From Pezicula radicicola (lineage: Eukaryota; Ascomycota; Leotiomycetes; Helotiales; Dermateaceae), in the NCBI GenBank assembly GCA_003008705.1, contig PDUO01000018.1, positions 336,630 to 400,629 of the forward strand: a DNA stretch of 64,000 bases, given 5' to 3'. Both the position numbers and the translations under genes were made by a program. Each line of letters begins with the position of its first letter. Position 1 is the stretch's first letter. Below, one piece after another: positions 18,056 through 53,182 of the stretch. The notes beneath the pieces are model-generated. The model was not told the origin of the DNA. It ran no database searches and worked only from the letters and a program-made list of their open reading frames with translations.

Positions 18056-20338
18056 TTAAGTAAAGAACCTCCACTCAGGACTATCCTCCCCCTCGCTCAA
18101 CCTCTCCGTATCAACATAAACCCTCCCAGCACCACCACCAATACCCATCAGCCTATCCCTCCTCCGATTCTGCACCTTCATCCAACCCCCCAACCCCGCA
18201 ACAAGCACAATACAAGCAACATTACAAGCCGCAGTAACCACAAGCGTAGGCCTATACCCCGGAGCAAACTCAACCCTAAAAGTAGCCGCACTCAAAATAC
18301 CCGCCAAATTTCCCAAACCAACCAGAAAGCCCGTAGTAGCAGCCCTCGAATTCTCATCCAGATTATTATTATTATGCCAAGAATGTACTAGTACACTAGG
18401 GATATAAGAGCCTGCCGCCATCAGGAAACAAGCAAAGTATGCTATGTTTTTATGTGCGAGGACGTCGATTGAGGCTAGGATTATCATGCCTAGGAGAGAG
18501 AGTAGTAGGGAGAAGATTATGTGATAGGTTCGTTCTCGGAAATGGTCGGATGATTTGCAGATTGCTAGGAGGGTTATGAAACCTACTGCGTTGGGTGCTA
18601 CGGTCCAGAGGTTGGTTTTTATTGTTGAATAGCCGAGGCGGGCTACGATCTAGAAGTTTGTAAGTTAGAAACAGTTACGTCGCTTAAATATCTAGCCAAG
18701 AAAAGAAAGAAAGAAAATAAGAGAAGAGAAAACAGGAAGAACGGAAACGAGAGACGAAAGTGAGTCTTGCAAGAAGAATGATAAGGTAAGGTAACAAAAC
18801 ATACCTGCGGTAAAAAATTACTCGTCGTAGAAAAAGCAACCGGATAAGTAAAAGCAACAGCACACCAAACAAAAAACCGACCAGGTCTTTCCCTCCATCC
18901 CTTAAAAGCCATTCTCAAACTAAAACTAGACCCAACAACCCTACTACCATCTCTCAACATCCTCTTCTCCGCAACTCTCTTCTCTTCATCATTTAAAAAC
19001 CATGCTTCTGAAGGCGATGCAGGTAACCACCAAAATGCAATGATGCCTACTAGAACTGTCATACTTCCTTCTATTATGAACAGATATTTCCAGCCGGGGA
19101 TCGAGGAGGAGGTTATACGGAATACGCCGTAGGATATTAGACCGCTGAAGGCTGCTGCTAGGAGTGCGGATCCGAAGAATAGTGCTAGTCTGAAGCCGAG
19201 TTCCGGACGCGTGTAGAAGAGTGTTAGGTAGAATACTACGCCGGCGAAGAAACCGGCTTCGCAGGCTCTATGAGATTTGGGAGTTAAGATTTTTCTTGGA
19301 ATATTTTTTTTTTATAGATATTTTGGATATTTCTGTGTGTGTGTGTGATTGAGGATTGAAGGGGGACTGAGATGGGGACATAAATAAATACATACCCCAG
19401 AAAAAGACGAATAACCAACAAACCAGCGAAATTCTTAGCTGCACATTGAAGTAAAGCCAAGGACCCCCAAGTTACCATAACTATTAATTTCCCAAAACAT
19501 CAAGTCAGTAAAATCAAATCTTTCCAATTAGAAAAAATAAAGGTAGTATAGTACCCCTAAGAGTAATTTTTCTAAGATAAATGAAAGAAACCTAGATAGG
19601 AAAAAAGTAAAAGTTTTGTAAATATCGTGCATGTATGGGAAGTACTTGTACATACGTATAGGCAACATAACCCTCCCAGACCAAAGTTTAGTCAAGAGAT
19701 TAAGCGGTAAATCACACAGTCCAAAAGGTATATAAAAGAGTAGAATAAGTAAAGAATATTCATTTCCTTTGAAATGAAGATCCGTATCTATCCCATCTGT
19801 TTTGGCATTCCCGAGATTAGACTAAAAAATTTATTAAAACTTTTTGTCAGTTACGGGGATCTTCTAAAAAGGGCTTTTGGCTTCTGAGAGGAGAGGGGAA
19901 GAAAGATAGTGGGTAGAAGGAGATGTCATACTCGATCGACGGAGTTGAAGAAATACATCTACCCGAAAAGTAATTAGTGTAAGGCCCTTTTTTCTTTCTC
20001 CGGGTAGAGGTGTTGTGATGATTTGATTACTTACAAGTGACAAGAAAGGAAGAAGATAACAATCTAATTTCCAAACTATTAAATAAACATTTAAATCAGC
20101 TAAACCCCTTTACCCTCTCATCTCAAATCTCATCATCTAATAATAATAAAACAAACATACCATAAGAACGTTCAGAAACCCTATCAATCTGCAAAACTAC
20201 TACAGTTTGGCCCTCCTCCACTTTAGCGACATCAACATCAATCACATCACCAGTAGTAGCATCGTTAGCATCATTAGCTACAGAGATATCAGAATCTTTC
20301 TCTTTCTTTCCTTCCATTTCAATAGTATCAAGAATCAT
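18056..20338 (-). CDS. hxnP: MFS permease of the Dal5/Tna1 (anion:cation symporter) family, HxnP-like
   Basis: Seven exons: 20338-20161, 20075-20035, 19958-19932, 19821-19656, 19480-19396, 19267-18805, 18649-18056; about 517 aa. The two tiny exons (41 and 27 nt) restore the family hallmark: KLDCYLLPFLSLMYFFNSVDR, then SNLGNAKTDGIDTDL. Later blocks include the TM segments MVTWGSLALLQ, ARNFAG-like AAKNFAGLLVIRLFLG, EAGFFAGVVFYLT and WWLPASPSEAWFL, and the C-terminal half is complete. Dal5-family carriers import allantoate, nicotinate and similar anions; yeast Tna1 is the nicotinate permease. Position at the edge of the nicotinate cluster makes HxnP the natural match. The short leader before TM1 is acidic. 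Exons 6 and 7 each show a sharp A/C to G/T switch on the + strand. Confidence 0.75.
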
Positions 20339-20903
20339 GACTGCGACAGATTTAGAAAAGAAGAATGAATGAATGAACTTTTTGAGCTGATGTTGAGAAA
20401 TGGGTAATAGTGCCGGGATTCTTTTATCTTATATATATATTTAGACTCCGATGATGTTCATTATTGAATGTATGGAAGACGAACGTATGATGTATCGGGA
20501 CCGTTGCACAAACTTCCTGCAGCTTAATCAAGCTTACCTTATTTGATATCAGCATGTAGAAGCTTATCTTTAAATCAAGGTCTCGTACGACGATAGTATG
20601 CACCTGTATGGCAAAGAGGAATCGGAAGTGGGGGAGGAATTGTCGAGGAGGCAACTTTCGGCCAACCCCTTTCACATCCGCTTAAATTCCAGGTTCTGAA
20701 GAGAGCTGTGATCGGTGGGATGCATGCTTTGCACAATCTACTATTCTACTACCGTACCTGATGAGTAATACCATGTACCTTAATGATTTAGCACTGGCTA
20801 GTAGACATGCAACATCTTATTTATTTTTTTGGTGTATCCTAAGCGTGAATTGCTTATGCTATAACAAAGTATAGCATTTCTCGTATCTTCATAAATCCCA
20901 ACC
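20339..20903. promoter_or_regulatory. hxnP promoter and hxB 3' end
   Basis: No gene is seen. A GATAAG (GATA-factor) site lies at 20563-20568 on the minus strand-reading sense (CTTATC on +), about 225 bases upstream of the MFS start codon, with an ATATAT tract at 20432-20441. The right end is the 3' flank of hxB. Confidence 0.4.
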
Positions 20904-23399
20904 TCAATCAGAAGCTTCCACAACATCACCAACCCTAATATAAACCCTTTGCTTTGCACCCGACCCCGATGAAGATGGAACATGACACATGTGCTCACCA
21001 AAAAATACCTTATTGTCAAATCTCCGGGTCTTCGCCAAAGTTACAAAAGGCTCCTCATTACGCTGCGCAGTTTCCTGATCAACACAGACCATGGAACATC
21101 TCCGACAGCTACCGAGCATCTCAAATACCTGCCCAGTCTCGCCAACTCGAAGATAAGTCCATTTATCTTCGATATAGGGCACGGAGGTCGAGGGAGAGGA
21201 GGAAGCAATGACAATGTTGGACCGGAAGACTGAGGGATGAGCTGGCTTCCCATCTTTCTTTGAGATGAGTGAGTTAAGGAAGTCGAGGGAAGCGCGGGTT
21301 ATAATTAAGATTGGACTTTCATTTGAGAGCAGGATTGGCCGTGGTGAGCTACTTGGCGATGATGGGGGAGGTGAGGGGGGTGGAGTTGAAAATGAGCCCG
21401 GAACTGGGGTATAATCATCTTCTAAGCGACGTTTCCTGGGGAGTTGGTGTAATTGGAGGTGGGCTTTTGAATGCCTTGTACTTGGACCCGAGCCTCCTGC
21501 TGGAAAGCGTGCTAGATTGCAAGGAACACCAAGGGCAGAGGTGAAGAATTCGGTGATATGAGTAGAGTTGTAAGGATAAGCGTCTACGCTCTCGCTGCAG
21601 ACATTTGATGGCCGGGTTTTAATACTGTCAGGGCCTGAGAATAACGGTATGGATATTTGTTGCGATATTTCTCTGGGCTGCCCGTGTAATCGTACTCGTA
21701 GTAATCCTTCTTGGAGATCGATTTCTGGCCGGAGAAGAGTCATGCGGGGATATCGCTTCTGACTCAAAGCTTGGCCCGTTCCTGAATGAACAAGACACCA
21801 TTCCCTATCCCACGCCAATCCTTCTTCCTTAACCTCCCAGCGCATGTTTGAAGGTACTGACCAACCGCCACAACTTTTAATGGGATATACTGTGAGACTT
21901 TCAACATACAAACCCGGCCTATTCGTCAGTGGTGTATCTGTTTGCCTTAAGTCTTTCTCGGTTGATTGTTCGACATAGAACTCCCGCATAAAATTTATGA
22001 ACGTCATAACATCCGTCATGTTACTCATAGCTCCCAAACTGACACGAATAACTCCAGTTGGTTTACCTCCAACTCCTTCATTGTCGGTACCACATCGCTG
22101 ACCCGCAGAGAAATTCTTCTTCATTTCCCAAGGTTCAAGCTGTAAGTGATGTGCGATTCCACCGGGATTGCAGAGGCCTCCTGTTCGGAGATGTATGTTC
22201 TTGATAGACGCTACTTTTTCAACTTCGGAGTTTGGGACCCAAGTCCCATCGCTATTCTGTATGTTGAATGCAATGACGGGACCCTGAAGTCGTCTGTCAC
22301 TGTAAGGAAGTGTCAAGTTTGTATAAATCTTGCAAACCTGTCGACCATTACTATGCCGAAGCGAAGACAAGCCTCGATACAGCCTGTCAGCTAGAAAAGA
22401 AGTGTGTTTTGATATTTGCTCCATAGAACCATAAATTCTTTGATGGACATCGAAGGCATTATCAAGGGCTAAGATGTTATGTATAGGTAGTGTTCCATCT
22501 TCAAGTTGCTGATGGAGAGACTGCTCTCTTGGCAAATGCCATTGCTCCTGCAGGCAAGAAACCATCTCAACAGTTCCTCCCCCAAAGTATTGACGTTTGG
22601 TCAAAGCATGACCGGCAGACTTTCGCACTATTAGTGCACCTAAGTCTGGAAACCCAAATATTTTATAGAAGCTTAATGCAGTGAAGTCTGGAGCTTGTTC
22701 CGACCTACTTAGATCTAACGGTGATGTAGATACTAACGCAGCAGCATCAAGTAATGTGTATATATTTCTTTTCGTTTGTCGAACTTGATGTGCCCATGAC
22801 ATAGGTAACCGACGCCCATTCATATTTGACTGCGCCGGATAAGCAAAGAGACCAGGTCTTTCGGCTGTAGCCTCACTTTCCACCTCCCGAGCTGTGAGCC
22901 ATTGCTCAACCGCCTCATCTGATTCAAGACATTGACTTCGGGCAGCGCACTCTCTCACCCCAACTAAACTTGTATGGGAGTCTCGATGATAGCTGTAGGA
23001 AAAGCCCTTCTCGTGAGCCCTGAAGCCTTCCAGAACCAGCTTGATAGCAGCGGTGGCGTTTGCCACGAAAACCAAGTCAAATTCGTCTGGGTCAGCTTTG
23101 AAGAACTGTAATGCCCGAAGCCGTACATCGTCAGCCCGCTTAGTAGCTAAAATAGACGAAGCTGAGCCCGAATGGGGATTCCCATACAAGCCCGATATCA
23201 TAGAAGTAGCGAAGTTCTCAACCAGAGACATTGCATAGAGCGTGGTACCCGAGTGGTCGAGGTATGTTGCCCCTGTAGTCAATTCTCAGCACATGTTCTA
23301 TCATATCACTCTGGAAGAAGATATACCTTGGAGCATAGGATACTCGGCCTCCCGGATAGCATCGATATCGTCGTTGTAGACATGGTCAGCATCAGACAT
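20904..23399 (-). CDS. hxB: Molybdenum cofactor sulfurase (HxB-like)
   Basis: Exons 23399-23327 and 23272-20904; about 813 aa. The start chosen is MSDADHVYNDD; an in-frame ATG at 23480 is possible. The enzyme adds the terminal sulfur to the Mo cofactor of xanthine-dehydrogenase-type hydroxylases and aldehyde oxidases. The N-terminal NifS-like, PLP-dependent cysteine desulfurase begins with GATYLDHSGTTLYA, carries GNPHSGSASS, the PLP lysine in LSFYKIFGFPDLGALIV, and the sulfur-carrying Cys in RTGGLCNPGG. The C-terminal MOSC region starts at VESLTVYPIKSCGGW, with the substrate-facing WDREW and LARFPAGG segments, and ends GSCRRCSMVCVD. Its likely partner, HxnS, lies 10 kb away in the same cluster. 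Two GATAAG sites occur upstream (23851, 23943). It probably also serves HxA elsewhere in the genome. Confidence 0.88.
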
Positions 23400-24044
23400 C
23401 TCGGAGCACGTGATGCAATTGAAGGTGGCACTGTTGACGCCGTACACACTCTCTGGTGCTTGGTTGTCACTCAATATCATCAATGAGGGTTGGAAACACA
23501 GTGTCCATCACCTGATGAGATATTGGTAAGCTGTCCAACATGAAAATGTCAGATCTCAGTTGGCGTTGTTTGCTCTTTCTTTGTGGAGGAGGTGAAGTCA
23601 AAGCAAGTGGGGCAAAATGGTGAGAGTGACGGCCGGCTCCGATGGAATGCGATGGGCTGGGGATGGGGGATGGTCCCTTGCAGTCTTTCGCCTAACACAG
23701 TAAAGCCTGCCAAGAGTGGGCGATTGCAAATCAGAGTGGGGGAGGGGTAAAGAAGCGAGTGCCCGATAAAGCCCCCCTTTTCACTAATGTCGGCCCTGCA
23801 GTAGCTCAACTTCGGTATACCCTACAACACAATCAAATTATTCAGGAGTTGATAAGTGTGCCAGAATACGATAACCCTGTAAAATTGCTGCCCTGATGGT
23901 CTTTGGCCTTTCTCAGATATGATACTTTAGATTAGTAGCATTGATAAGACAAAGGAAGGAAAGGTCGGTTCAAAGAAAGATACCTGGAACTTGCAAAGAA
24001 GCGAGAAAACAGTTAGTTTATTTAGGGAAATATTACAGAACACT
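23400..24044. promoter_or_regulatory. hxB upstream region / hxnM 3' end
   Basis: No gene is supported. The frame 23549-23809 has no protein-like pattern. GATAAG sites lie at 23851-23856 and 23943-23948, which fits nitrogen control by a GATA factor, though such sites also arise by chance. Confidence 0.35.
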
Positions 24045-25355
24045 CTACTGTGTAGCCTCTGCCTGTTTCTTGAGGATCTCCCCCGCTGGAGCTGGCATCA
24101 TTGCACCTTCAGGCGGAGTATTCCTGCTCTTGAAATCATCACACATCTGCTCCATGGTCACCCATTCCACGCCTTCATGCTTGTTGATATGTTCGATGAT
24201 CCGCTCGTGCATCAGTAAGACATGTGGACGTCCAGAAACATCAGGGTGGATCGTCATTGGGAAGATGAACTCATCGTATTCACGATAAAAGTAATCGAAG
24301 TGATCCTGCAGCAATTGTTAGTCTCTAACTTCCAAATCTTGAACATTGAGATCCTGACCTTCCAGATATCCTCGATATCTCTTGGATTAACCCAGCCATG
24401 GCTATTTGCCGAATTCTTGATAAACATCATAGGAGGCTACTTCCAAGTCAGTATTCCAAAAGTATTCAACCACGTATAGAAATAGAATAACCCACCAAAT
24501 CATCAATATACCAACTCCCAGGAATCTCCACCAACCCCGTAATCTTCCCCTTAACAAGCGGCTTCATCCACTCCTCGGCCTTCTTCGAATAATCAATTTT
24601 CGTCCAAGTATCACCAGTCCTCAACCTAGAGGTTCTCAGAGTTAGCAATAATTCTTTCCAATGGATTTAAGATTGTCCAACATGATTCGAGAGCCTTGAT
24701 ACAAGTTTCCAACCTCACATCTAGAAACATGTCTCAAAGCTCAATAAATCCCCTAAACAAGAAAATATAGCTCAGAGAATGAAATATCCTCACCAATACA
24801 TCTGACAATCCTCATGACTCATACTATGATCATACTCAATCCCATAACTAAGCAACAACTCAGTCCCCTTCTCACTAGTCTCCCACCAAGGAGCAACACT
24901 ACCCCTCGGAGGTTTCCCACAAAACTCCGTCAACATCTTAAAAGTCTTATCCAAAACATCCTTCTGTTGTTCAAATGTCATATCTGAAGGATTCTCATGC
25001 GAATATCCATGTAACCCAATTTCATGTCCCGCATCTCTTACCATGGCGCATTCTTCCGGAAACGTTTCTAGGGAGTGTCCTGGGATGAACCAACTGGCTT
25101 TGATGTTGTATTTTTCGAAGAGTTTGAGGAGTCGTCGGGTTCCGATTGTTCCCGCCCAGAGTCCTGTTTGTGGGGGGAGTTAGGAATTGAGTGTTGGAGG
25201 TTTTTTCTCTTCTTTTCTTTTCTTTTTGTGTGTGTAGAAGGGTCAGTACCTCGTGAGATGTCACTTGTTGAATCTTCTCCTCCGTATGATCCCAGCCATC
25301 CAGCGACGGCATCGATATCAACACCATAAGTGCAGAGAACGCGTTTCTTGCCCAT
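24045..25355 (-). CDS. hxnM: Cyclic-imide hydrolase of the polysaccharide-deacetylase/PuuE-like fold, HxnM-like
   Basis: Exons 25355-25250, 25163-24794, 24625-24496, 24436-24359 and 24305-24045; about 314 aa. The sequence is a NodB-fold metal hydrolase: it opens [20 protein letters not shown] (Asp metal ligand region), then [30 protein letters not shown] (HxxxH-type metal ligands), [10 protein letters not shown] and [19 protein letters not shown] (late His). Such proteins are often labelled polysaccharide deacetylase, but there is no signal peptide or chitin-binding domain, which argues for a cytosolic small-molecule hydrolase. In A. nidulans HxnM is reported to open a cyclic imide made late in nicotinate breakdown, and the location beside hxnW and hxnN supports this. 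Exon 2 carries the A/C to G/T switch near 25030. Confidence 0.8.
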
Positions 25356-25556
25356 ATTGACGGATGACTGTGATGTAGATGACTAGAATTCGTGTGTGAG
25401 AGAGAGAGGGAGAGAGTTGAACGTGAAGAGAGTGATGTTTGGGGAGGGGAAGAGAGAAGTGTTCAGCAACAAGAAAAAACAAAGAAGACAAGGCTGAGTG
25501 ACAGCGAAGTGCATGAGCTTCAATCGGAATGACTTCGAATTTACCAATCATAGTAT

Positions 25557-25589
25557 GGTAATAGAGTGGTAATAGAGTGGTAATAGAGT
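25557..25589. repeat. Three tandem 11-bp repeats (GGTAATAGAGT) in the hxnM-hxnW promoter
   Basis: Units at 25557-25567, 25568-25578 and 25579-25589 are identical. The spacing is one helical turn, so a protein could bind all copies on the same DNA face. A regulator site, perhaps for HxnR, is only a guess; slippage is the simpler alternative. Confidence 0.6.
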
Positions 25590-25613
25590 GAGCAGGGATC
25601 TCCTAGGGAAGCT

Positions 25614-25628
25614 CTTATCACTCTTATC
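25614..25628 (-). promoter_or_regulatory. Paired GATAAG sites (AreA/GATA type)
   Basis: CTTATC occurs on the + strand at 25614-25619 and 25623-25628, nine bases apart and in the same orientation, between the divergent hxnM and hxnW genes. Paired HGATAR sites are typical targets of AreA-type nitrogen regulators. Confidence 0.45.
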
Positions 25629-25893: not shown

Positions 25894-26780
25894 ATGAGCA
25901 GAGTAAGTTATAACCTCGCCTAAAACTCCTAAAAGCTACAGTACCAAGGCTATCCCACTAACACACCTCACAGTTCTCACTCAAAGGACGTACCGCCCTA
26001 GTAACAGGCGGAGCCCGAGGCTGCGGTCTCGCCTTCGCAGAAGGACTTGCAGAAGCCGGAGCAGACGTAGCAATATTCGACATAATCGCCCCCGTACCAG
26101 CCTTCTTCGAAATCTCCAAAACCTACAACGTCAAAACCTCACACTACATAGTAGATGTCTCCTCAATAACCTCTTTAGAAGAAGGCTTCGCATCCTTCAA
26201 AAAAGACTTTGATGGAAAATTAGACATTTGTGTACCATGTGCAGGAATCAATCGAAATGTTTCGTTTTTGGATACTAAGTTTGAGGAATTTGAGAAATTG
26301 TTGGGCGTTAATGTTATGGGGGTTTATTATACTGCTCAATTGGCTGCTAAGTTGATGATTGAGAATGGGACGAAGAAGGGTAGTATTGTTTTGGTTGCTA
26401 GTATTGCTAGTTATATGGCTATTAGGAGTCAGAGGAGTAGTGCGTATTGTGGGACTAAGGGGGCTGTTAGGGCTATGTGTCCTGCGATTGCTGCCGAGTT
26501 GAATCAATATGTAAGTTTTTTTTTGGTCTTGTGGATGTTTGTGGGGATACTTACAGAGATGCAGGGTATTCGTGTAAACAGTATCTCTCCTGGATATGTA
26601 AGGACGGAGATGACGGCCCCTTTTCCACACCTTTTGGAAAGCTGGAAGGACGAGATTATGAATGGAAGAGTTGCGGAGCCTGAGGATATTAGAGGTGGTT
26701 GTGTGTTCTTGGCAAGTGATGCTAGCTCGTACATGACTGGACAGGACTTGTGTGTCGATGGAGGAGTAACTAAATGGTAG
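25894..26780 (+). CDS. hxnW: Short-chain dehydrogenase/reductase, HxnW-like
   Basis: Exons 25894-25902, 25974-26510 and 26565-26780; 253 aa. The first exon is only three codons (Met-Ser-Arg). Classical SDR marks are all present: the NAD(P) loop TGGARGCG (residues ~14-21), CAGINRN, the catalytic Ser in LVASIASY, the YxxxK pair in SAYCGTKGA, and the C-terminal SPGYVRTEM and DLCVDGG. In A. nidulans HxnW acts as a ketoreductase on a partly saturated ring intermediate of nicotinate degradation. That substrate is inferred here from the cluster. The gene is divergent from hxnM and convergent with hxnN. Codon choice flips abruptly near 26245 from C/A-ending to T/G-ending codons while the protein stays normal. 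Confidence 0.82.
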
Positions 26781-27099: not shown

Positions 27100-29148
27100 T
27101 TACCTTCCCATAACCTTCTCAAAGACCTTAGCAACACCAAGTACCTTCTCTTCCTCAAATCTTCTTCCTATAATCTGCAGTCCCACAGGATGTCCATTCA
27201 TAGCCACAGGATCATATAGTTTCCAGTTGAAAGCATCAAGTTCACTCCTCGGCTCATATGGAGTTTCTGGAATCGGATCCTTCTCTTTAGAGACTATACT
27301 TACAGGGAATGCAAGTGCCGTATAATCGAGCAGGTTCCATACTTTGGTATAGCCAACCCATCTGTATTACTTGTTAATAGCAAGGCTTTCCAAAAGTAAA
27401 ACGGGACTTACCGGGTAGTCCGATGTGGTACAGCTGAATGTGGCATAGTTGGAGTCAGGAGAACATCGACAACACGGCCAGACACAGGGCCTTTTGTTGC
27501 GTTCCATTTATCAAGATATGCCTTCTGTACAGCTATCTTCTGTTTGTTGAGCTGCCAGTATTCGTAGACGGAGATGGGCTTTCCGCGGTTGACGAGAGCT
27601 TCAACATGTGGAATATATGGCTCTCCGCCGGATTCTATAGCTCGTCGAATATCTTCGCCGCCGTCCGAAGTGTAGTATTTGTCCTGGGTAGATTAGTAAA
27701 TATTCCGCAGAACGAAACAATGAGATGTCGGGAATGGAGGTAGCCCTAACTTGCGACTCCCTCAGCTTGCCCAGACATGGGTAAAAATTACTTGTTGGGC
27801 ACTTGCCTCCCAATCGTTAAGTTGATCAGAGTAACTCAAGAAGAATGCGTTACTGTACCAATAGCGGCTCTTACCATAACAGCTACACATTCCTTATGTA
27901 GCGAGGGTTCCCAGTCAACCAACTCGTGACCTGCTTCCTTCAACTTCGCAACTAACTCCTTCAAAGCTCTTTCAATAGGTGGATGTGCTCTGACGACCCC
28001 ATCATCGAGCATAATACCAATTACAAGGGGTCTTGACTGTACCTCATCATACATTGCAGCTCTCCAAGGAATCGGAACGACTTTTGGATCGAGAAGCCAA
28101 GGCTCAGCATCTATTACAGCTTTGGTGATAGTAGTAATTGATGACAAGCTTCGTGTCATGGGCCCTATTGCTGAAGGCACATGCTCTTGGCCTTCTGTTG
28201 AAACAGGAACTCCTTGGTAGGGCATGCGAGCACTCTAGACACGCTATCAGTCAAGATATAAAGTCGAGGAATAAACACTGAGAAACTAACACTTGGCTTC
28301 AAACCATAGACCCCATTTATAGAGCTTGGAATTCTTATCGAACCTCCAATATCTGTACCCCAGCCCACAAGTGAACCATGCAATGCCAACAGAGCACCTT
28401 CACCTCCAGTTGATCCACCTGGAGTAAAAGCTGGGTTACGAGGGTTTATCGTGAGTCCCCAGAGTGGGTTTTCGGTCTCGCACCACTGCATAATTTTAGT
28501 GATGTACTCTGAGAAGCGGGAAAACTCCTACCATAATACTCTGAGGAAGATTTGACTTAGCAATAACCACAGCACCCAAGTCTTGCAGAATCTTCACCAC
28601 AATAGCATCATCTTCGGCTGGGTTGAACGCCATTCCAACATAGCCGAGAGTCGTGTCAAGTCCTTTGACATTGAACTGGTCTTTCAGGGTGATCGGAACT
28701 CCATGAAGGGGACCCAAAGGTTTGCCATTGACCTTGAAGTACTCATCGAGAGTCCGAGCTTGCTGCAGAGCACCTTCGAAACAAATTTCCGTAAAGCAGT
28801 TGGTCTGAGAGTAGTGAGCTATAGGTCAATATGTAATTTGCAAGTAACTTACTGCTTTATGAGCAGCTACAGCCCTGGATCGCCTAATTTAGCTTGGGTA
28901 AAATCTAGACAAGATTGCATCCTTGGGACTCACCTCTTGATATATGCTAGAATGACTTCCTCGGCCTTTAATTTGCCATCTTTCAAAAGCGTGATAAGTG
29001 ATTCAACATCATCAAGATCCGTGATTGAATCAGTAGCTGGGAGATCTGGCTCAAGATATGGTGCAATGGCAGCAGCCTGTAGAGCGCGCTTGCGTTCCAC
29101 AATGGTCTCCCAACGTGAGACTGGCATATTCTCCTTAGATTCACCCAT
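27100..29148 (-). CDS. hxnN: Amidase (amidase-signature family), HxnN-like
   Basis: Exons 29148-28934, 28883-28853, 28804-28532, 28485-28291, 28234-27875, 27683-27412 and 27361-27100; about 535 aa, normal for fungal acetamidase-type enzymes. The Ser-cisSer-Lys triad is visible: Lys in VPITLKDQFNVKG, cis-Ser in TPGGSTGGEGAL and nucleophile Ser in GTDIGGSIRIPS. The C-terminal VNRGKPISVYEYWQLNKQK and GLQIIGRRFEEEKVL segments are typical of the family. In the A. nidulans pathway HxnN deamidates the ring-opened product (a hydroxyglutaramate), releasing ammonia. Intron 27684-27874 (191 nt) is about three times longer than the others. The upstream gap to hxnV's stop is ~470 bases. Confidence 0.82.
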
Positions 29149-29619: not shown

Positions 29620-31828
29620 CTACCCTTTCAAGAAACCCCCATAATATGCATCCAAATACTCACAAGCCTGCGTTACCTCTTCATTCCTCCACCTCGCAAT
29701 CGACCCAACATACCCATCCGGCCTCACATTAACAATAACCACTTGTCCTTCCTCTACACCTCCAAGCCACTTTTCTGTACAAGTCTGCTTCTCACTCAGC
29801 ACATCGTCAAGATAAAATGTCCATCGGCTCTGCCTCAGCATGGCAGGCAAATCTGCGATTTCAATCTCCTCTTTCCTCATTGTCGTTACGAGCGCTGGCG
29901 TGAAGAGCTTGCTTACGGCTGTATATCGCTGTGGCTGAACAAACTCGTCCGACTCAAGTGCTGTAGTATTCATAATGGCGTAGGATTCGGCGGCTGCTAT
30001 TGATGCATTGCCAAGGATGGAGTTATTGGACATGAGATGCGAGGAGACAGCAGAGAGGAATGCACCAGACGAGTGAGGATTTGGTGTGAAAAAGAACATG
30101 CGGAACTGACCCAACATCGGAATATTCAGTTGGAGATCTACAGGATTCGCATCAATATACCTTGTTACTCTAGCAGGGAGTAGAAGTGCGCCTGATCGAA
30201 GACATCCTCCTGGATTTGACGATTCTATATTAAGGACGTTTGGGGCATACGTTGCACCGATGCCAGAGATAAAAGCAATATTAGCAGCAAAGTTGGCTGC
30301 AAGAGCTTTAGAATCGCCTTCTGCAAAGGCGTTGGCATGTTCGAAGTCGAAATTGATGAGATCTTGCGCAATCTTGCGTCGCTCCTGGCTATATGTCGAG
30401 AGAAGAGAGGGAAGTGCAAGACCTCGGATAGCCAGGTTCAACTTCCAAGATAAATTGAAGGTATCGTGCATGCTGACATTCATGCCCTGTGCTGCTTTGG
30501 GCGAGTGTGTATGTGCGGCCTTCAATGGAAGTTAGCAAAGAGGAAGGAGAGTACGGTATTAGAGGACGCACGTCTCCTGTGATGAACACTTTCTCAGCAT
30601 CATCTGTAAAGCGGTTTGCAACCCGCTGGCCGACTTTATAGACACTGAACCATTCTTGATAATGTCAGCTGAGTAAGGAGTAGGTTGAGAAGTTTGACCT
30701 ACCGACACTTTTCCAGGTCAAGGTAAAGGGAGCTACAATCTCTTGTGCTCTTTTCATAACAAAGTCCTGACTTGCTGACTCGGATGACAAGACTTCGTGC
30801 ATCCCAGGATTCAATTCGATATATAGCCGTGTCATATTTCTTTCTCTCGGGATACATAATATGGTTCCCTTTTCTTCGGAGTGGATGACCACTTTGCTCC
30901 AGAGATCTGGAAAGTCTGTCTCAATGACACCTACAACATCCTATCAGTAGTGCTCCTCAATATTTTCTGAGAATAAGTTCCAAGCATACCATCTAGAACA
31001 CCCCAAGGAGCTCTGCTACTGTCACCAATCATCTCAGCGCCTGGAATACTACTTCTAACCAGTGATCTTGCACCATCACACCCAATCAAGTATTTGGCCT
31101 TCAAGGACTTCTCAAAACCAGTGGTGGTGTCGTTACAAACAACCTCAATTGGCGCTTTTAAGTCTGAACCCATTGAATATCTTGCGAATGGACTACTCCT
31201 TGTCACTTCTACCCCCCGTTCTCTTAAATCGTCGATGAAAATATCTTCAATCATTCCCTGATGCACCAGTAAGACGAAGGGCTCTTTGACATCTACTTCT
31301 GGTGGATAGTGCACTTCTCGGCGTGTGCGGTGCAATGGTTCCGTAGCTGTGGAATTCTGAGGCAGATGGGTAAGCTACTAAGTGAGTAACGCTAACGGGG
31401 TGTTACCATACCCAAAAGCAGATATCAAATATTTTTACGCCCTTCTTCAAAAGCGAGCTCGCCAATCCCAATTGCTTAAACGTCTCAATTGTCTTTGGTT
31501 GCAAACCATCTGCCCGTCCAGTAGACGTTTTATCACTCCGGTCATCAACAATCGTAGGTTTAATACCATAGCGTGTCAAGTTCGACCTAGTACAGAAAAA
31601 GCATCAGAAAAGAAACATTCTAGAGTCCAATTGCAAAGGAGTTGCTCACACGGGACTCAGAACTTACGCCAACATTAACCCAGCAGGTCCAGCACCGACA
31701 ATAACCACATTTTCAACATTATTACCACCATTGACTCCATTGCCATTGGTGAAGCCCTCGTTATTCGCACCTGGAGACATCTTGGGAGAGGCTTGAGATC
31801 GGGTACGCTTCATCACCACGTTTCCCAT
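29620..31828 (-). CDS. hxnV: FAD-dependent aromatic monooxygenase (phenol-hydroxylase type), HxnV-like
   Basis: Exons 31828-31668, 31586-31412, 31374-30990, 30930-30703, 30654-30572 and 30519-29620; about 643 aa. In-frame ATGs at 31813 and 31780 are alternative starts. The FAD-binding Rossmann motif is [14 protein letters not shown], followed by the DG-type motif [13 protein letters not shown] and the FAD motif [20 protein letters not shown] with [10 protein letters not shown] after it. The C-terminal ~200 residues form the thioredoxin-like domain of phenol 2-monooxygenases (ending [15 protein letters not shown]). In A. nidulans HxnV hydroxylates a dihydroxypyridine-level intermediate; here the substrate is inferred from the cluster. 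It lies downstream of and codirectional with hxnS. Confidence 0.82.
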
Positions 31829-40384: not shown

Positions 40385-43300
40385 ATGAACAGCCAAGGCC
40401 AAAGCGAAGGCTCCAACTTCCCCGCCTCCACTGCTGTGCAAAGCAATTCAAAAGGGCACCCCAAGAAATACATATGTACACACGAGAACTGCAACAAAGC
40501 ATTCACGCGATCAGATCATCTACAAAGGCATAGCCTCAACCATGGAATTGGCAAAAGCACTTGTCCCAGATGTTCAGTCCACTTCAACCGTCCAGATCTA
40601 TTGGACAGACATATGGCCCGTCACAAGCAGAAGGATGACGAGGCCGGAGGCTATGGATTAGGAGTTATGGAGACTCGAAAGAGGATGTGGCGTGATGCCG
40701 ATGGAAATATAGTTACTAAAAGGCCGACTCTTCCAAATAATAATCCTATCGCTACTTCTCAGCAGCAGCAAATTCCGTTGTCAGAGAACCAGCAGCATGG
40801 AAATGGCAACGCTGGCTTTGAGACGCAGCAGAATACAGAGCCATTGTCTCCGCCAAGGTCTATGAGGAGTTCGGATTCAAATGGGAGAGGACATCAACAG
40901 ATGTCTGGAATGGTTTCTATCCCAGAGGATCATTGGAACATCGACCCCCTTCCAGCTTTCAGAAATGATGCTCCCGAGATGTGCGAATTCTTGGCAAACT
41001 CCTCATGGGGTTCTCAAACTGCTCAATCTTCAATACCTGCAGGCAATGTCCCGTATGATGACATGTTTAATCCGGATACAGCAAGTTCATTTAATATGCC
41101 ATTCACAACGATGAACAACTACAACTGGCTATTCGATGTTAATGGACTAGGACAAGCTATGCGAATGCCGCTTAATGTTGAACCACCACAAGGTCGGCCA
41201 TATCACTCCATGCCAAGTCCAAGGTTATACACACCAAATATTCAGAGCAACTTTAATAGCAACCAATACAGACCGCCTTTGACCCAAGAAGTCTTATCAA
41301 GCAGCGGATTATCTATACCGCCATCAAATGGCACTTTCTCGGAGCCAAACCAAATGCAGATTGTGTCTGGTAAACAAGGACAGTACCCAAATGAAAACTC
41401 TAATGCGCCGACGCTACGTTCTTCTACATCGAGTAGCTCTCAAGCACTCTCTCCAGATAACTCAACGCCCGGAGATTTGTCTGGACAGTATTGTCACACA
41501 ACAACTTCTCAAACATCCGTATCCGACTACCAAGCGCCTACGAGGACGCCCAATGCGTTGAGCAGCCGGCCAGAGCCTATCTGGGCGAATGATCCTCTTC
41601 GAACTTTTCGTCCAACTTCGCGTGCAAGAAATCTGCCAACAGTAGATGAGATATGTCGGAATCAGCTACTGGATCTCATTGTCCAAGCAGGACCCAAAAC
41701 TCCAGAAGGGTCTCCAATTACTCCGGATCATCCTCTTCTCTCACTTTCTGCTCTCCAAAATTATTGTGATCTATTCTTCTGCCGATTTAATGTCACTTAT
41801 CCCCTCCTGCATCAAGCGACTTTTGAGCCGTCTCAGGTAGATACCCTACTGTTAATATCTGTTCTACTACTTGGTGCAACTTATGGCGACAAAGCAGGGC
41901 ATCGTTTAGCTGTCTGTATTCATGACGTTCTTAGAGCACAAATATTCCAGAACGCATCTTTCAAAGCACAGCCAGATTTATGGATGCTTCAAACGATATT
42001 GCTTGTTGAGTGTTTTGGAAAATCAAGGGCAGGGCAGACACAACACGACATGGCGCACTTGTTCCACGGCTTGCTCATTAAGTAAGTGATTGAATACGCC
42101 TCAATTAGAGTTCTAGTTGTGTATTGAGATTCTAACTTTATGCATCGCAGCTTAATACGAAGAAGTGATTGCCAGACAGTTCGGCAACCTAATTTTGAAG
42201 ATGGGACTGGGGACTTAGAATCAAACTGGCGACGATTTGTAGATGTTGAGCAGCGAAAAAGGTATGTTTGTACCGTTATTTTCCTGTGCAATTATGGGCC
42301 TACTATTTACACATAATAGGCTTGCTCTGCTTTGCTTTCTGTGGGATACACAGCATGCAGTCCTTTTCTCTCAATCACTGTGCATGTCTGCCTTCGAACT
42401 TCGCTTATCGCTACCATGCAATCCAACAACTTGGGAAGCAGAATCAGCCGAGGAGTGGCACAAAAACTTCAAAAAAGAGACAGAGACGTCTTTCTTGTCG
42501 GTGTTGAAAGTTTATGTTAACCCAGGCTCATCTTCCCCGCCGCCTAATCTAAACGCGCTATCCCGACTTCTTATTCTTCACGGGCTCATGTCCATATCAT
42601 GGGACATGAAACGAAGAGATCAAACCTCTCTCGGTGACCCTCCTATCCTCCCCTCCCTTTCTTAGAGGAAGACCGTACTAATAGACCCTCTTCAGGTTTT
42701 GTGGGACCCACAGCACAAGATCGACAGATTCGCCTCGCCCAATCTTACGATGCTTGGAAGGCTGACTTTGACACTTACTGTATGAGCATGACCATGTCCC
42801 TGAAAGAGAACGCAACTCTCAAGAAGGAGTTCACCCAGTTTAGTACAGCAAGTATAGCCATCTATCACGCTGCACATATAATCCTCAATGTGGAGATTCT
42901 CGACCTCCAAATCTACGCTGGAGCCCGCCACATCATAGGTCGTCCAGTGACGCGCGTGGATTACGACCGGTCTCGACGGATACTAAAGCAATGGGTGAAA
43001 CCTGGAGGTTCACCAGCCGCAGTCAAGGCATCCTGGCATGCAGCCCATCTACTGCGCGACGGCATCATGAATCTCGATAATTGGGACGTCAACGACGTCT
43101 TTCATTACCCATGGTGTTTATACCTTGCAACCCTTACTTGCTGGGGGTTCCATTTCGCCGGGAGCGATAAAGTTGATGGCGAGAATGGAAACTTTAGCGG
43201 GGAGAGCTTGCAACATGATGATATTGTATGGGATGCTCAAGCAGAGATGAACGCGCTTGTGAGTGGGATGACAAGTGTTACTCCCGAGGGCTTGTGGCGA

Positions 43301-43453
43301 ATGGTTGGTAAATACGCTACGAGTGGGTTGACAGCCGTCATGGCGAAGCATCTAAGCAGTGTGCGCTGGGCAGTGGTACATGAGGGTATGAAAGTTTTAA
43401 GGGGTTTGGTTGCAGAGAGGAGTATTAATGAGTATGAAAGCCTGCTTCGATAG
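40385..43453 (+). CDS. hxnR: C2H2 zinc-finger transcription factor with fungal regulatory domain, HxnR-like
   Basis: Exons 40385-42081, 42151-42261, 42320-42633 and 42696-43453; about 959 aa. Two C2H2 fingers lie near the N-terminus (about residues 27-75): YICTHENCNKAFTRSDHLQRH and TCPRCSVHFNRPDLLDRHMARH. A long Ser/Gln/Asn/Pro-rich linker follows. From about residue 425 comes the fungal-specific transcription factor domain (PF04082 type), with PLLHQATFEPSQVDTLLL, ATYGDKAGHRLA, LLVECFGKS and WRRFVDVEQRKRLALLCFLWDTQHA. This architecture (C2H2 plus the middle homology region) is that of HxnR, the pathway-specific nicotinate regulator. An upstream in-frame start at 40238 would extend it but lacks protein-like character. 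The central cluster location supports the role. Confidence 0.83.
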
Positions 43454-45090: not shown

Positions 45091-46348
45091 ATGGTCTACC
45101 TCAACTCCGTAAAGCTGGCCACCCTTTTGGCAGCGACATCGTCTCTCTACTCATCAGTCTCAGCACACCCGGGCGAAGTCCACGATGCCGTTCACGTGAA
45201 ACGCGAGATCGAAACTCGCAACTCCCTAGCTACACAGCACAAAAGATCTCTTGACCTCTGTGGCAATAGCGCCAAAGCTCGATCTCTAAATGAGAGATCA
45301 ATCGCAAGACGTGCAGCCAAAGCAACAAAATTGCGTGCCGCTCGCGGACTTCCTGATAGTAAGGATTAAAATCTCAATTCTTCTCAATTATACTTCCGTC
45401 CTCAAATTATAGAAACCTGTTGCTAATAGATTATTTTCTTATATAGAGCCATTCAAATCCCGTCGTGATTTGGCTGCGTTGGAGGTCTTTGATACTGTTA
45501 ATCACAACATGACCGGGTTGGTCACCGACTATTCGGTTGAATCTCTCTTTACCGCCAATACCAGTTGCATTCTTACACCCGAGACTACAATCGGTCCATA
45601 CTGGATCGAGGGAGAGTTGATCCGTTCCAACCTTACAGATGGGAAAGAAGGTGTACCCATTCACTTAGAACTTCAGGTAAGAATATCAGCACTCAAAGCC
45701 TTCAAAATATCAAAATATCAAAAATACCCAAATACTGATCTCACACTCCTAAAGTTCATCAATGTCGACACCTGCGAGCCAGTCCCAGATCTCATGATCG
45801 ATACCTGGGGCGCAAACGCAACCGGCGTCTATAGCGGCGTCTACTTCGCAGGCAACTCAGCCGTCTCCGCAAACCTAGGCAGCCTCTCGGAAAACTACAA
45901 TCGAGGAGTCCAACCAACAGATACAGAAGGAGTAGCAGCCTTCGATACCAATTTCCCAGGTCATTACGACGGACGAGCAATTCATCAACACACAATAGTA
46001 ACACACAACTATACACTTCTCTCCAATGGAACCTACAGTGACGGAATCGTAAACCACATTGGACAGATTTTCTTCGACGAAGGTCTTCGTTCAGCTGTTG
46101 AAGCTGTTTATCCTTACAATACTAATACCCAAGCTGTTACTAGTAATGATGATGATACTTGGGCTCCTACTCAGGCTGATAATGATTATGATCCTTATCC
46201 TGAATATGTGTATCTTGGAGATGATATTACCGACGGTCTTCTGATGTGGTTGCAGATTGGGATTAACGTTACGGCTGATGTTACTAGTGCGGAGAGTGCT
46301 GAGGGGAGGTTGACTGCTGATGGGACTGTGGCTTTGGGGACTTTGTAG
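45091..46348 (+). CDS. Secreted intradiol ring-cleavage dioxygenase-like protein
   Basis: Exons 45091-45358, 45447-45676 and 45755-46348; about 363 aa. A signal peptide (residues 1-25, ending SVSA) precedes a His/Arg-rich pro-like region with several dibasic sites. The catalytic beta-fold carries ETTIGPYWIEGE (Tyr ligand region), VDTCEPVPDLMIDTW, GVYSG and FPGHYDGRAIHQHTIV (the two His ligands). Fungal proteins of this kind are extracellular Fe(III) dioxygenases thought to cleave catechols. It is not one of the known hxn genes and its secretion does not fit a cytosolic pathway, so it may be a recent guest between AT-rich segments. Exon 3 has one of the clearest A/C to G/T switches (about 46085). 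Confidence 0.8.
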
Positions 46349-47192: not shown

Positions 47193-48691
47193 TCACAGTC
47201 TTGGCTGGATCTCTTCTTCAACTGGCCAAAATTTATCTACCTCATCCTCGCAACACCATCCTAATAAACTCGGAGCAAAGGAAGGATCCTTCCAAGCCAA
47301 CGCGTCCCCCGGCTCACCAGCCCTCATCACCCTATCTCTATCTTCTTGCTCCGGCCCATCATGAAGATGATACAGCCATTGCTGCCTATTGCCTCTCTCA
47401 ACAACCATCTCCGTTCGCGGCGCTCGAATCTTCTGGTATATGTCTAGAAGTTGCGATTTCTTCTTCGGTGATAAAGGACCTGTACAGCGCGAAAACAACT
47501 CGCCGAGAACTGCGCCATCTTCAAGTGACATACCAGCTCCCGAGGCAAGGTAGGGAAGTGTTGCATGCACTGCATCACCCAGCATGGTAAATGCGCCGGA
47601 GGGGTGAGACCACCGTTCCATTCCTGGTCTAATGCAAAGACGCCACTTGCAGACGGATTCGCAGAGGCTGAGTAGTTTTGGAATCCTTGGATCCCAGTCT
47701 TTATAAAGGGCCCGCATCTCCTCAACGTTCCCTTCGGTTATATTTTGACCTTTCGGTATGTCGTCGGGGACAAGGAGAACCATATTGAAAAGCTCTCCAC
47801 CGCGGAGAACATAATTTACTGTTTCTGTCAGATACTCTGTCTGCGTCGAGTAGAGGAAAGTAGGACATAACTCACCAGCATGAGCATCTGGTCCAAGCCA
47901 GTAGTTTACTTGTGGCTGTGTCACGAAGGGCGCCAGTTCTGGATCCTTGAGCATCTCCTTTGTAGACAAAAGAAGTCTATAAGCCAGATCACCGGTCAAA
48001 AGAGGCGGATCTTCCTTCCCCAGCATTATCTCTCTCAATCGACTATTAATTCCATCAGCACCCACCACCAAATCGGCAACATGTTCTTCTCCATGCTGTA
48101 GAACCACTGTCGCAGTTTCGCCATTGGGATGAACTCGTACATCCGATACTCTCGCATTAACCTTCATCTTAGCACCTAACTCAATCGCTCTGTCTATAAG
48201 ACACTTATGAAGATTCGCCCGATGGAAGTCCCAATAGAAAGTCCCTGGATATTGAGTAGCTGAGGCAGCGAAATCCATGGATGATATAACCTTTCCCTTC
48301 CAGCCTAGGAAGTTAACTCGTGAAGGTTTTGTCGCACAGTTTTCTAACATATCTTTCATTCCCCATGTTTGTAAGACTCGACTACTGTTAGGGAGAATCT
48401 GGATACCAGCGCCGACCTATATTCCAGATCAGTTACTGTTTGCATGGTCTAAACTTGGAGTTGTTATACCTCGGCAATTTCTGAGGCTGCCTCAAATACT
48501 TCTACATCATGTCCAGCGAGGAGGAGTGCAATTGCTGCACCCAGACCTCCAAGTCCTGCACCAACAACAATAATCTATCAACCATTCAAGATCAGCTATC
48601 TCTGCTCGACAAGCCCATATTTATATCTACCAACCTTCAATTTCGAAGCAGCATCTCGTTGTATCTTCCGTTTCGCAACAATGGGAGCCAT
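47193..48691 (-). CDS. hxnX: FAD-dependent monooxygenase (salicylate-hydroxylase type), HxnX-like
   Basis: Exons 48691-48635, 48574-48470 and 48416-47193; 461 aa. The first exon encodes a short basic leader (MAPIVAKRKIQRDAASKLK). The FAD-binding motif follows at once: IIVVGAGLGGLGAAIALLLAG. Later come YWDFHRANLHKCL, the DG motif LVVGADGINSRLR and the second FAD motif FTMLGDAVHATLPYLASGAGMSLEDGAVL. The protein has the length of salicylate or 6-hydroxynicotinate 3-monooxygenases. In A. nidulans HxnX performs decarboxylating hydroxylation of 6-hydroxynicotinate to 2,5-dihydroxypyridine. The C-terminal end QPRL is not a clear peroxisomal signal. It is divergent from hxnY. Confidence 0.83.
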
Positions 48692-49507: not shown

Positions 49508-50708
49508 ATGCCTGCGGACGCACCTCCCATTCTCGACTTTTCCGGTGAGTGTAAACAAAATTTACTATCCCAGGGAGAAGTTTACTGACAAGCATACAGC
49601 TTTTTACGGAGAAGACGAGAAAGCAAAAACACAGCTGGTCGAAGATGTAAAAAAGTGCTGCTTGCACAATGGATTCTTCCAGATTGTTGGCCACAAAGTG
49701 CCAGCCGAGTTGCAAGAGAGAACGATCAAATGCGTGAAGGAGTTCTTTGCTTTACCACAAGAAGATAAGAATAAGGTACATAAAGGTATGTTCTCCTGCA
49801 TTGCTTCATGTGCCAAGTGAGTACTACTTGCTGACAATTGGAAACAGATCAAAATACTTGGAATAGAGGCTACGAAACAATGGGTTCCCAGATACTCGAA
49901 GCCGGAACTTCACCCGACATGAAAGAAGGGTTTTATATCGGCGAAGAAATCGCTAAAGGCCACCCTTATTTTATCAACAAGAAGCTCAACAGCGGTCCAA
50001 ACCTCTGGCCTGTTGGCTTAAGCAATACCGACTCCTTCCGAGAAACATCGATGGAATATTACAAATCAATGCACTCTTTAGCTCGCGACGTCCTAGTAGT
50101 TCTCGCTGAGACTCTGGATCTTGATCCAGATTATTTTAAGGGATTCACGACCGATGCTGTGGCTACATTGAGGTATCTACATTATCCACCACAGCCTAAG
50201 GATTCCGACGAGAAGCTTTCAAGGGGAATTGGTGCTCATACGGATTTTGGCTCTGTTACATTACTGATGCAGGATGAGGTTGAGGGGCTGCAGGTTTGGG
50301 AAAAGAAGACTGGGGAGTGGTTGGATGTTGTACCAACAAAGGGGGCATATGTTGTTAATTTGGGGAACATGTTTATGCGATGGTGAGCCCACGAATCTTA
50401 CTACTACTGGAGATGATGGAAAGCTAACTTTTGGTTCCAGGTCAAATGATCGTTACATTTCGAATCTCCATCGCGTTATCAATAAGTCTGGTAAAGAGCG
50501 ATATTCGATTCCTTTTTTCTACAGCGGTAATCCGGATTATGTTATTGATTGTCTACCAAATTGTCGGGCAGATGGAGAACCAGCTAAATATCCACCTATT
50601 ACTGTGGAAGGGGCTGTTGGTGGGAGTTATAAGGCTAGCTATGGTGCAGCTGAAGCTTTTAAAAAGAAGCAAGCTTTACCTGTGGCTCCGCAGCCTGTTG
50701 CAGTATGA
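49508..50708 (+). CDS. hxnY: 2-oxoglutarate/Fe(II)-dependent oxygenase, HxnY-like
   Basis: Exons 49508-49544, 49600-49785, 49848-50382 and 50441-50708; 341 aa. The N-terminal DIOX_N part reads PPILDFSAFYG, then NGFFQIVGHKVP. The catalytic double-stranded beta-helix holds the iron triad: HTDFGSVTLL (His, Asp) and SNLHRVIN (His). The oxoglutarate-binding Arg is in ERYSIPFF. GDMF-type NLGNMFMRWSNDRY is typical of isopenicillin-N-synthase-like enzymes. HxnY in A. nidulans belongs to the nicotinate cluster; its exact substrate is less certain than those of the other steps. It is divergent from hxnX and codirectional with hxnZ. Confidence 0.83.
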
Positions 50709-51405
50709 GTTAGGTATGGATTGGATTGGAGCAGATTGGTTGTCTTTTCATGTATCAAAGTTGTTTTTGGATAGGATTAACATAATGGCAATATAAACAC
50801 AAGATATCTATATCACGTATTATATGGTAGATTCCAGGGTAAATAGCTAGGTTGTAGACGATTAATCTCTATTTCGGCGTGCATTTGAAATACTCGACTC
50901 TACCAAAAAAAAAAAGGATGCTCGCTTAAAGACAACTAACGATACAACACCCATACTCCGTAAAGCAAGCTACATCCCTTTATGAACCGCATCGGAAAAC
51001 CTTCTGTAAACTTCACAAAGTACATATAATTTGGATTCGGGAAACTAAAGGCCGACAAGCAAAGGCTCCTGTTACTGTGATGATATTTCTAATCTATGAT
51101 TTGCCAAGCGCGAGATACTGTCCGCCGAGAAGGCTTATCCCCCACTCTTCTCCAAGATCAGTGAAGAGAAGATTGGGCATGCCGCTACCCTATCTCGCGA
51201 ACACCTGTTCCCTGTAACGCCAATGCAATTCTCCCTGGGTGTCGGCACGGCTGCTGATAGCTATACTTGGTTCACTATCACAACAAAACGTTCAAATACT
51301 TACGAAAAGTCATAACTTAATTTGGCTTGAGAAAACAGACCTTTACCTTGCCAAAAACCGATTTTCTTCTTGTCAGCGGAAACAAGGGCCGGCTTATTAC
51401 TCATC
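50709..51405. promoter_or_regulatory. hxnY-hxnZ intergenic region
   Basis: No gene is supported. A CTTATC (GATA) site lies at 51134-51139, ~270 bases before the hxnZ ATG, and an A-run at about 50906-50916 follows hxnY. Confidence 0.4.
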
Positions 51406-53182
51406 ATGTCGGAGCAAGAAAAGAAAGTCGAGGAGATTAGTCCTGCAGTGCAGAGAACTGAGTCTTATGGTGAGGGTATAACTTTGAAGCTTGATAACAA
51501 GGACAATCGAGAGTTCTATGGGAGTTCCATTAGTGATTCATATCGTTTGAAGTCGGAGCTTGTAAGCAAATGTCTTCAGGAGATTGGGATGGGGAGGTAA
51601 GTTATCCATGAACTCCGGATTTGTATTCACTTATAATTGTCTTATTTGGTAACAATTCCAACAATAGATATCAATGGGAACTATTCGTTGTAACAGGATT
51701 TGGCTGGATTACGGACAACTTGTACGTAGTCTAATTCTTTTAGATCAAAAAGGTTACAGAGCTAACGAATAATAAAGCTGGTCTCAAGGAATCGGCACCA
51801 TCCAACCAAGTATTAAACTCGAATTCGCAGATGTAACAATGGTAGGCTTCAGTTCTATCGCCTACTACTGCGGCCTCATCGTCGGTGCATCCTTCTGGGG
51901 AATCTCAGCCGATTTTATCGGACGGAAACCAGCCTTCAACGCTACACTTCTCATCGGCGGAATCTTCGGAGCAGCAGTAGCTGGTCTGGATAACTTCGTG
52001 GGCTTTTGTGTCATGTGGGCTATTATTGGTACAGCAGCTGGTGGTAATGTACCAGTGGATAGCATGATTTTCTTGGAGTTTGTACCTGGTTCTCATCAGT
52101 ATCTACTTACTGCTTTATCTGCATGGTGGAACTTTGGACAAGTGATCGTTTCCTTAATTGGATGGGTCTTCTTGGCGAATTTCACTTGTCCAACAGATTC
52201 CACGCCTGCGACTTGTAAGCGAGCGGATAATATGGGGTGGAGATATACGATGATTACTCTCGGTGGACTTGCGCTCGCCTTCGCCCTGATTCGGATTTTC
52301 ATCTTCAAGATGCCGGAATCTCCTCGCTATCTCTTATCCAAAGGTCGTGATGCTGAAGCTGTGGAAGCTGTGAATTACGTTGCACGGAGAAACAGAAAGC
52401 CAGAACCCCTTCATGTCGGCATGCTACAGGATATCGACCGAGAGCTCGGAATTGCAGTCAATCTTGATGAAGGCCGAGCTGGTCTCTCGCACATGACCAT
52501 CATGAAGGAGAACCTAAAAGACTTCAAGTCGGCAAACTACAAAGATCTCTTCGCGACTCGGAAACTGGCACGACACACCGCTCTAATATGGCTCATATGG
52601 CTGACCATCGGTAAACTTTTTTTCCCTACCATAATTAAATCTACAAACTAACAAAATCCAGGAATCGCATATCCTCTCTACTTCAACTTCCTCCCAACCT
52701 ACCTCGCCCAAAAATTCACCAAGAAGTCATCCCTCTACCTAACCTACAGAAACTACTGCATCGAATCAGCCGTAGGAGTAGTTGGTCCTATCACAGCCGC
52801 ATTCGCAGTGAACACACGTCTAGGACGCCGCTGGATGATGGGCGGTTCAGCAATCGTAACTGGAATATTTCTCTTCGCCTATACAGGAGCGACAAATACA
52901 ACAGGAAACCTAGCATTTGCCTGCGTCACAGGATTACTAGGAAATTTCGAATACGCAGTGATGTACGCCTTTACACCTGAGTCGTTCCCGGGTCCTCATC
53001 GAGGTACAGGTTCTGGAACTGCAGCCACCCTTCTTCGTTTTGGAGGACTTTGTGCTTCGCTTATTGGGACTTATACGAATTTCTCGGTTGTGCCCATTTA
53101 TGTTAGTGCTGCTTTGTGGATTCTTGTTGGTATTGTTAGTTTTGGGTTACCGTTTGAGACTCATGGTCGTTCAGCTATTTAG
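51406..53182 (+). CDS. hxnZ: MFS transporter of the SV2/NiaP carboxylate type, HxnZ-like
   Basis: Exons 51406-51596, 51668-51721, 51778-52610 and 52662-53182; 532 aa, about 12 transmembrane segments. After a polar leader, GMGRYQWELFVVTGFGWITDN opens TM1. The loop after TM2 has the MFS signature WGISADFIGRKPAF. TM4 reads VGFCVMWAIIGTAAGGNVPVD and the central MPESPRYLLSKGRDAEAVEAV is typical of sugar-porter-like carriers. This is the family of bacterial NiaP, a nicotinate transporter, and of HxnZ. With the Dal5-type HxnP at the opposite end, the cluster carries two unrelated likely uptake systems. Exons 3 and 4 show A/C to G/T switches near 51985 and 53000. Confidence 0.82.

Follow-up and report, generated by a model that had tools for sequence, protein, structure and literature searches.

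Can one fungal locus hold the complete nicotinate-catabolic (hxn) pathway? We addressed this question in Pezicula radicicola (Helotiales, Leotiomycetes), in a stretch of 64,000 nucleotides, hereafter the window (GenBank assembly GCA_003008705.1, contig PDUO01000018.1, positions 336,630 to 400,629), which is part of the contig labelled C62 in an assembly of 61.0 Mb and 152 contigs. Positions 18056–53182 of the window hold one candidate for each of the eleven hxn functions of Aspergillus nidulans, all as intact spliced models, which bears out the complete set that an earlier sequence-only reading of this DNA had proposed. The order is P-[hxB]-M-W-N-V-S-T-R-[IDO]-X-Y-Z, that is, eleven hxn genes and two extra genes, one for a molybdenum cofactor (Moco) sulfurase and one for an intradiol-dioxygenase-like protein (IDO). 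Neither the embedded sulfurase gene nor the cross-class phylogeny described below figured in that reading. We consider it likely that this is a complete and intact hxn cluster that comes close to self-sufficiency, since it includes HxB2, the sulfurase needed by the nicotinate hydroxylase HxnS.

The final thirteen gene models were built by hand from splice sites and reading frame; all have GT-AG introns, a length divisible by three and zero internal stops. A Pfam scan backs P, M, W, N, V, T, X, Y, Z and hxB. In HxnR, Fungal_trans scores above the Pfam cut-off and the two zinc fingers each score below theirs. Protein searches were made for HxB, HxnS and HxnR, presence elsewhere being judged from the 120 best matches to each, clustered at 90% identity, and trees were built by quick searches. 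The orthology proposed for every hxn gene is upheld by trees for HxnS and HxnR; for the other nine it stands on domains, lengths and position, with solved structures for five.

The residues that separate HxnS from the purine enzyme HxA and other xanthine dehydrogenases are described in PMC5746545, whose passages on this point list an Ala insert (F-A-T-A-L), His for Phe1013, Ser-Gly for Val1081-Ser1082, Pro for His954 and an aliphatic residue for Phe417. The window hydroxylase has FATALH (Ala inserted, His for Phe1013), Ser-Gly in TAASSGSD, Pro in YTPF and Val at Phe417 of bovine xanthine dehydrogenase. Alignment with the bovine enzyme covered Phe417, and the remaining sites were compared by eye with this genome's own HxA. 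That second family member, on contig C47, shows FTALF, Ala-Ser, His and Phe at the diagnostic sites, and the 4 matches of a genome search with MoCoBD_2 are confined to the hxnS and C47 loci. Among the 120 best HxnS homologues, F[AS]TALH occurs in 89 and FTAL in none; 28 of the remaining 31 have FATA with a different residue after it, and 3 are unreadable in this way. The closest listed homologue is that of Tricladium varicosporioides (Helotiales), at 85% identity. In the HxnS tree (44 rows), the genome's HxA, the sole HxA row and used as the outgroup, falls outside. By residue signatures and tree position, the hydroxylase is classed as HxnS, not HxA.

A xanthine dehydrogenase, in a purine or other aromatic pathway to which the hxn names would not apply, accords with the generic nature of the individual domains and with the best solved structures for this protein, which are xanthine dehydrogenases. 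Given the HxnS-type residues at five sites, the tree with the genome's own HxA as outgroup and the homologues of all eleven hxn functions lying together, we consider it very improbable. A hydroxylase that groups with HxA would have told against the sequence-only reading; the window protein did so neither at the five residue sites nor in the tree.

HxB2, a sulfurase encoded inside the cluster

HxnS activity requires HxB according to PMC5746545, and in A. nidulans the text of PMC8478523 places hxB under the control of UaY and HxnR. The window's sulfurase gene lies in the cluster interior, between hxnP and hxnM, and encodes a NifS-like (aminotransferase V) half with MOSC_N and MOSC in one protein. 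Its best 120 homologues of 3485 comprise 17 at 62–74% identity and 103 at 60% or below. The HxB tree comprises 51 rows: 49 of these 120, the window protein and the genome's own second copy on contig C64. In it, the window protein and those 17 form a clade of 18 rows (Shimodaira–Hasegawa-like approximate likelihood ratio test (SH-aLRT) 100), apart from the 33 canonical rows, all of which exclude the window protein. The window sulfurase belongs to a separate paralogue clade, HxB2. A recent Leotiomycete duplicate, joining HxB2 with 24 Leotiomycete canonical rows (including unnamed metagenome rows, assigned by tree position), was rejected in the approximately unbiased (AU) test (p-AU 0.003), as was grouping with the C64 copy (p-AU 0.001). 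Xylogone carries both the HxB2 and the canonical type.

Linkage of HxB2 to hxn genes in other fungi was inferred from contigs of equal length, the protein tables stating how long the longest contig is. The HxB2 clade includes seven named species, of which Xylogone, Coleophoma crateriformis, Lachnellula hyalina and L. cervina are not in the HxnR list and hence uninformative. HxB2 and HxnR lie on equal-length contigs in 3/3 other Helotiales named in both lists: Phlyctema vagabunda (4,113,341, too long a contig to carry much weight alone), L. occidentalis (40,071) and L. arida (94,000). By contrast, canonical HxB and HxnR do so in 0/19 species common to the two lists (Fisher p = 0.00065). The HxnS–HxnR pair, which served as a positive control, is on equal-length contigs in 30/36 species that both of their lists name. 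L. suecica has, among the listed matches, HxnR and only canonical HxB.

The hxB2 promoter also shares predicted sites with those of its neighbours. GHGGGG, the predicted HxnR site, was seen 21 times in ten cluster promoters against 7.4 expected, and the hxB2 promoter has three (P 0.03). The octamer CCACTCTT, noticed before it was counted, has six copies in the window, five in cluster promoters and the sixth at 16670. CGG-N6-CCG, which we take to be the UaY consensus, occurs once upstream of hxB2, with 0.02 expected (from 120 kb of genome), and once upstream of the genome's own hxA. The other nine cluster promoters and the C64 sulfurase gene have none; the whole window has 10, and the strict form TCGG-N6-CCGA was absent from the stretches tested. 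UaY control of hxB2 may be taken as a weak lead.

Could the sulfurase gene be an incidental neighbour, outside the regulon of an otherwise ordinary complete hxn cluster? According to the text of PMC8478523, the three A. nidulans clusters do not include hxB, and the HxB2 clade includes Xylogone, which has neither HxnS nor HxnR among the listed homologues. However, hxB2 does not lie at the cluster edge, its promoter carries sites common to the cluster genes, and its pairing with HxnR on equal-length contigs is not shared by canonical HxB. We therefore regard an incidental neighbour as improbable and favour a sulfurase that belongs to the cluster.

The C64 protein is 57–58% identical to HxB2 over ~450 residues. 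Its model (3366–5134 of an 8-kb locus) yields 499 residues with the aminotransferase domain only (Pfam); the first intron (269 bases) is long compared with those of other models from this genome, and the 8 kb around the gene are without any N, that is, without an assembly gap. A search with five full-length HxB proteins found nothing of the MOSC half at this locus at E up to 0.01. Across the genome, a canonical MOSC half used as query matched HxB2 (E 1.5e-114) and, weakly, one place on C14 (E 0.003), and PF03473 (MOSC) gave 7 matches including HxB2; MOSC domains of other proteins do exist. In the HxB tree the C64 protein sits among the Leotiomycete canonical copies on the longest end branch (0.69 versus a median of 0.17); that of Podospora is nearly as long (0.67), and the placement of the short C64 row is less sure. 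The MOSC half of the canonical HxB has been lost, which leaves HxB2 as the one full-length sulfurase that we found in the assembly. Because of this loss, HxB2 probably serves both HxnS and HxA, the service to HxA being what we infer from it.

Several points weigh against a near self-sufficient cluster. The P value of 0.03 comes from one promoter and is weak, and the relaxed HxnR motif GNGGDG was seen 50 times with 40.5 expected. Contig identity for HxB2 and HxnR follows from equal length. The 120 HxnS homologues listed include none from Phlyctema, Lachnellula or Xylogone, and those of HxnR none from Xylogone, which tells against a tie of HxB2 to HxnS alone. The C64 protein keeps the lysine and cysteine motifs that we take to be those of the desulfurase half, and might still have some activity.

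The reactions are taken from A. nidulans. By analogy, HxnP and HxnZ would transport nicotinate and derivatives of it; HxnS, once HxB2 has sulfurated it, would make 6-hydroxynicotinate; and HxnX, HxnV, HxnT, HxnW, HxnM and HxnN would take this to alpha-hydroxyglutarate and ammonium. HxnR would switch on the cluster genes, and hxB2, with its predicted HxnR sites, would be co-induced with them. The locus offers a test case for the question of why metabolic genes come to be clustered: a pathway cluster that also encodes the enzyme maturing its first catalyst could function in any cell that makes the basic Mo cofactor, as a transferable unit would need. Deletion of hxB2 should abolish nicotinate and purine use together.

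HxnR and HxnS across fungal classes

The HxnR tree comprises 48 rows, 47 of the 120 listed and the window protein, whose closest listed homologues are those of Halenospora varia and Coleophoma cylindrospora (Helotiales) at 75%. Leotiomycetes split into two groups here, one of eight together with Xylona (100) and one of nine to which the window protein belongs (100); the latter nine sit with nine Chaetothyriales and three Dothideomycetes (99). In the HxnS tree, the window, Tricladium, Amylocarpus, Coleophoma and Bisporella group with Pseudocercospora and nine Chaetothyriales (100), and ten other Leotiomycetes lie outside this set. A single Leotiomycete clade was rejected for HxnR (p-AU 3.0e-34) and for HxnS (p-AU 5.8e-05); both values are optimistic, because the split was suspected from the identity lists before the test. 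As a control, the canonical HxB tree places Halenospora, L. suecica and the genome's own C64 copy with the other Leotiomycetes. No second full-length HxnR was found in this genome, the next matches to native-type HxnR being 31–33% identical in the C-terminal part and 49–54% in the finger region (contig C73). In Exophiala xenobiotica, HxnR comes in two types, one in the window's group and one with the Eurotiomycetes.

The grouping of HxnR and HxnS with Chaetothyriales suggests either horizontal transfer or an old second lineage, and both would fit. We give a little less than an even chance to two old hxn lineages in a common ancestor, differentially kept with no horizontal transfer. Such lineages accord with the span of the window-type HxnR over Helotiales, Chaetothyriales and three Dothideomycetes, with the two types in E. 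xenobiotica and with trees that give no direction. They would need many losses, however; no Leotiomycete among the rows chosen has both HxnR types, and this genome is without a second full-length one.

A more elaborate history, rather unlikely in our view, is that the cluster moved between Helotiales and Chaetothyriales and captured HxB2 in Helotiales; the housekeeping sulfurase would then have become dispensable, lost its MOSC half and begun to decay, leaving purine use dependent on a gene of the nicotinate cluster. The text of PMC8478523 does not list an event grouping Helotiales with Chaetothyriales. The shared position of HxnR and HxnS may explain why the first complete single clusters were described in just these two groups.

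Gene models and neighbouring features

The features of the locus are collected in Table 1.

Table 1. Features of the hxn locus, in window coordinates. MFS, major facilitator superfamily; FAD, flavin adenine dinucleotide; PTS1, peroxisomal targeting signal type 1; aa, amino acids.
Feature	Position	Strand	Description	Basis
hxnP	18056..20338	-	MFS carrier, 517 aa, 7 exons	MFS_1
hxB2	20904..23399	-	Moco sulfurase, 813 aa, 2 exons	Pfam aminotransferase V + MOSC_N + MOSC; homologues; tree
hxB2 upstream region	23400..24044	-	3 GHGGGG (predicted HxnR), one CCACTCTT, one CGG-N6-CCG at 23630	
hxnM	24045..25355	-	NodB-fold cyclic imide hydrolase, 314 aa, 5 exons	Pfam; solved structure 3qbu, 441 bits
hxnW	25894..26780	+	Short-chain dehydrogenase, 253 aa, 3 exons, divergent from hxnM	Pfam
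hxnN	27100..29148	-	Amidase, 535 aa, 7 exons	Pfam
hxnV	29620..31813	-	Phenol-hydroxylase-like FAD monooxygenase, 632 aa, 6 exons	Pfam
hxnS	32977..37746	-	Mo-hydroxylase (nicotinate hydroxylase), 1470 aa, 5 exons	Residue signatures; tree
hxnT	38620..39927	+	Old yellow enzyme, 400 aa, 3 exons, divergent from hxnS	Pfam
hxnR	40385..43453	+	C2H2 + Fungal_trans regulator, 959 aa, 4 exons	Pfam; homologues; tree
IDO	45091..46348	+	Secreted-looking intradiol-dioxygenase-like, 363 aa, 3 exons	Solved structures 6bdj, 5vg2; Pfam below cut-off
hxnX	47193..48691	-	FAD monooxygenase, 442 aa, 4 exons, C-terminus PRL (PTS1-like)	Pfam
hxnY	49508..50708	+	2-oxoglutarate dioxygenase, 341 aa, 4 exons, divergent from hxnX	Pfam
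hxnZ	51406..53182	+	MFS/Sugar_tr carrier, 532 aa, 4 exons	Pfam

HxnX shows His-x3-Tyr as HAVNY and has NicC (5eow) among its structure matches; its C-terminal peroxisome signal is PRL, whereas that of A. nidulans is SRL. The second extra gene, IDO, is probably a bystander. An alternative ring-opening step was considered for it and rejected: the start looks secreted, the Pfam match (Dioxygenase_C) is below cut-off, and its upstream region has neither GHGGGG (0 copies) nor CCACTCTT.

Between hxnR and IDO, positions 43646–44100 hold an AT-rich miniature inverted-repeat transposable element (MITE) of ~455 bases with inverted ends (43647–43695 and 44052–44100) that are 96% alike; it scored in at least 40 places in the genome, the window copy included. 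An unclustered HxnM paralogue lies on contig C71 (709969–710859) and is 63–76% identical, in pieces, to the window's HxnM. Outside the cluster, positions 2464–7329 carry a draft model of 1236 residues, possibly two adjoining genes fused.

Comparison with known hxn systems

The sequence-only reading implied that a complete set in a single locus was new. The text of PMC8478523 describes all eleven hxn genes in single clusters in Cyphellophora europaea (Chaetothyriales) and Hymenoscyphus repandus (Helotiales); a complete single locus is therefore of an already known kind. In the H. repandus cluster, the divergent couples hxnS-hxnT and hxnM-hxnW are kept, as in the window, which is without the divergent P-Y and V-N pairs. 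The text names no hxB or dioxygenase there, although these may still stand in figure 5b or the supplements. For C. europaea, the M-W-N-V order that we infer from the same text matches that of the window, whereas V-N and P-Y are divergent in that species and the window has N and V in tandem and P at a distance from Y; for this cluster, too, the text makes no mention of hxB. The literature searched on hxB, hxn genes and Moco sulfurase clusters, with PMC8478523 covered by its text, showed no account of an hxB gene within an hxn cluster.

Within the Moco sulfurase family, the window protein has the same aminotransferase V, MOSC_N and MOSC architecture as HxB but falls in the separate HxB2 clade. 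The A. nidulans regulon, as the text of PMC8478523 presents it, resembles the window in its eleven functions, in HxnR- and AreA-type sites and in placing hxB under HxnR and UaY. There, however, the genes form three separate clusters with hxB in none of them, whereas P. radicicola has one locus that includes an hxB paralogue of another clade.

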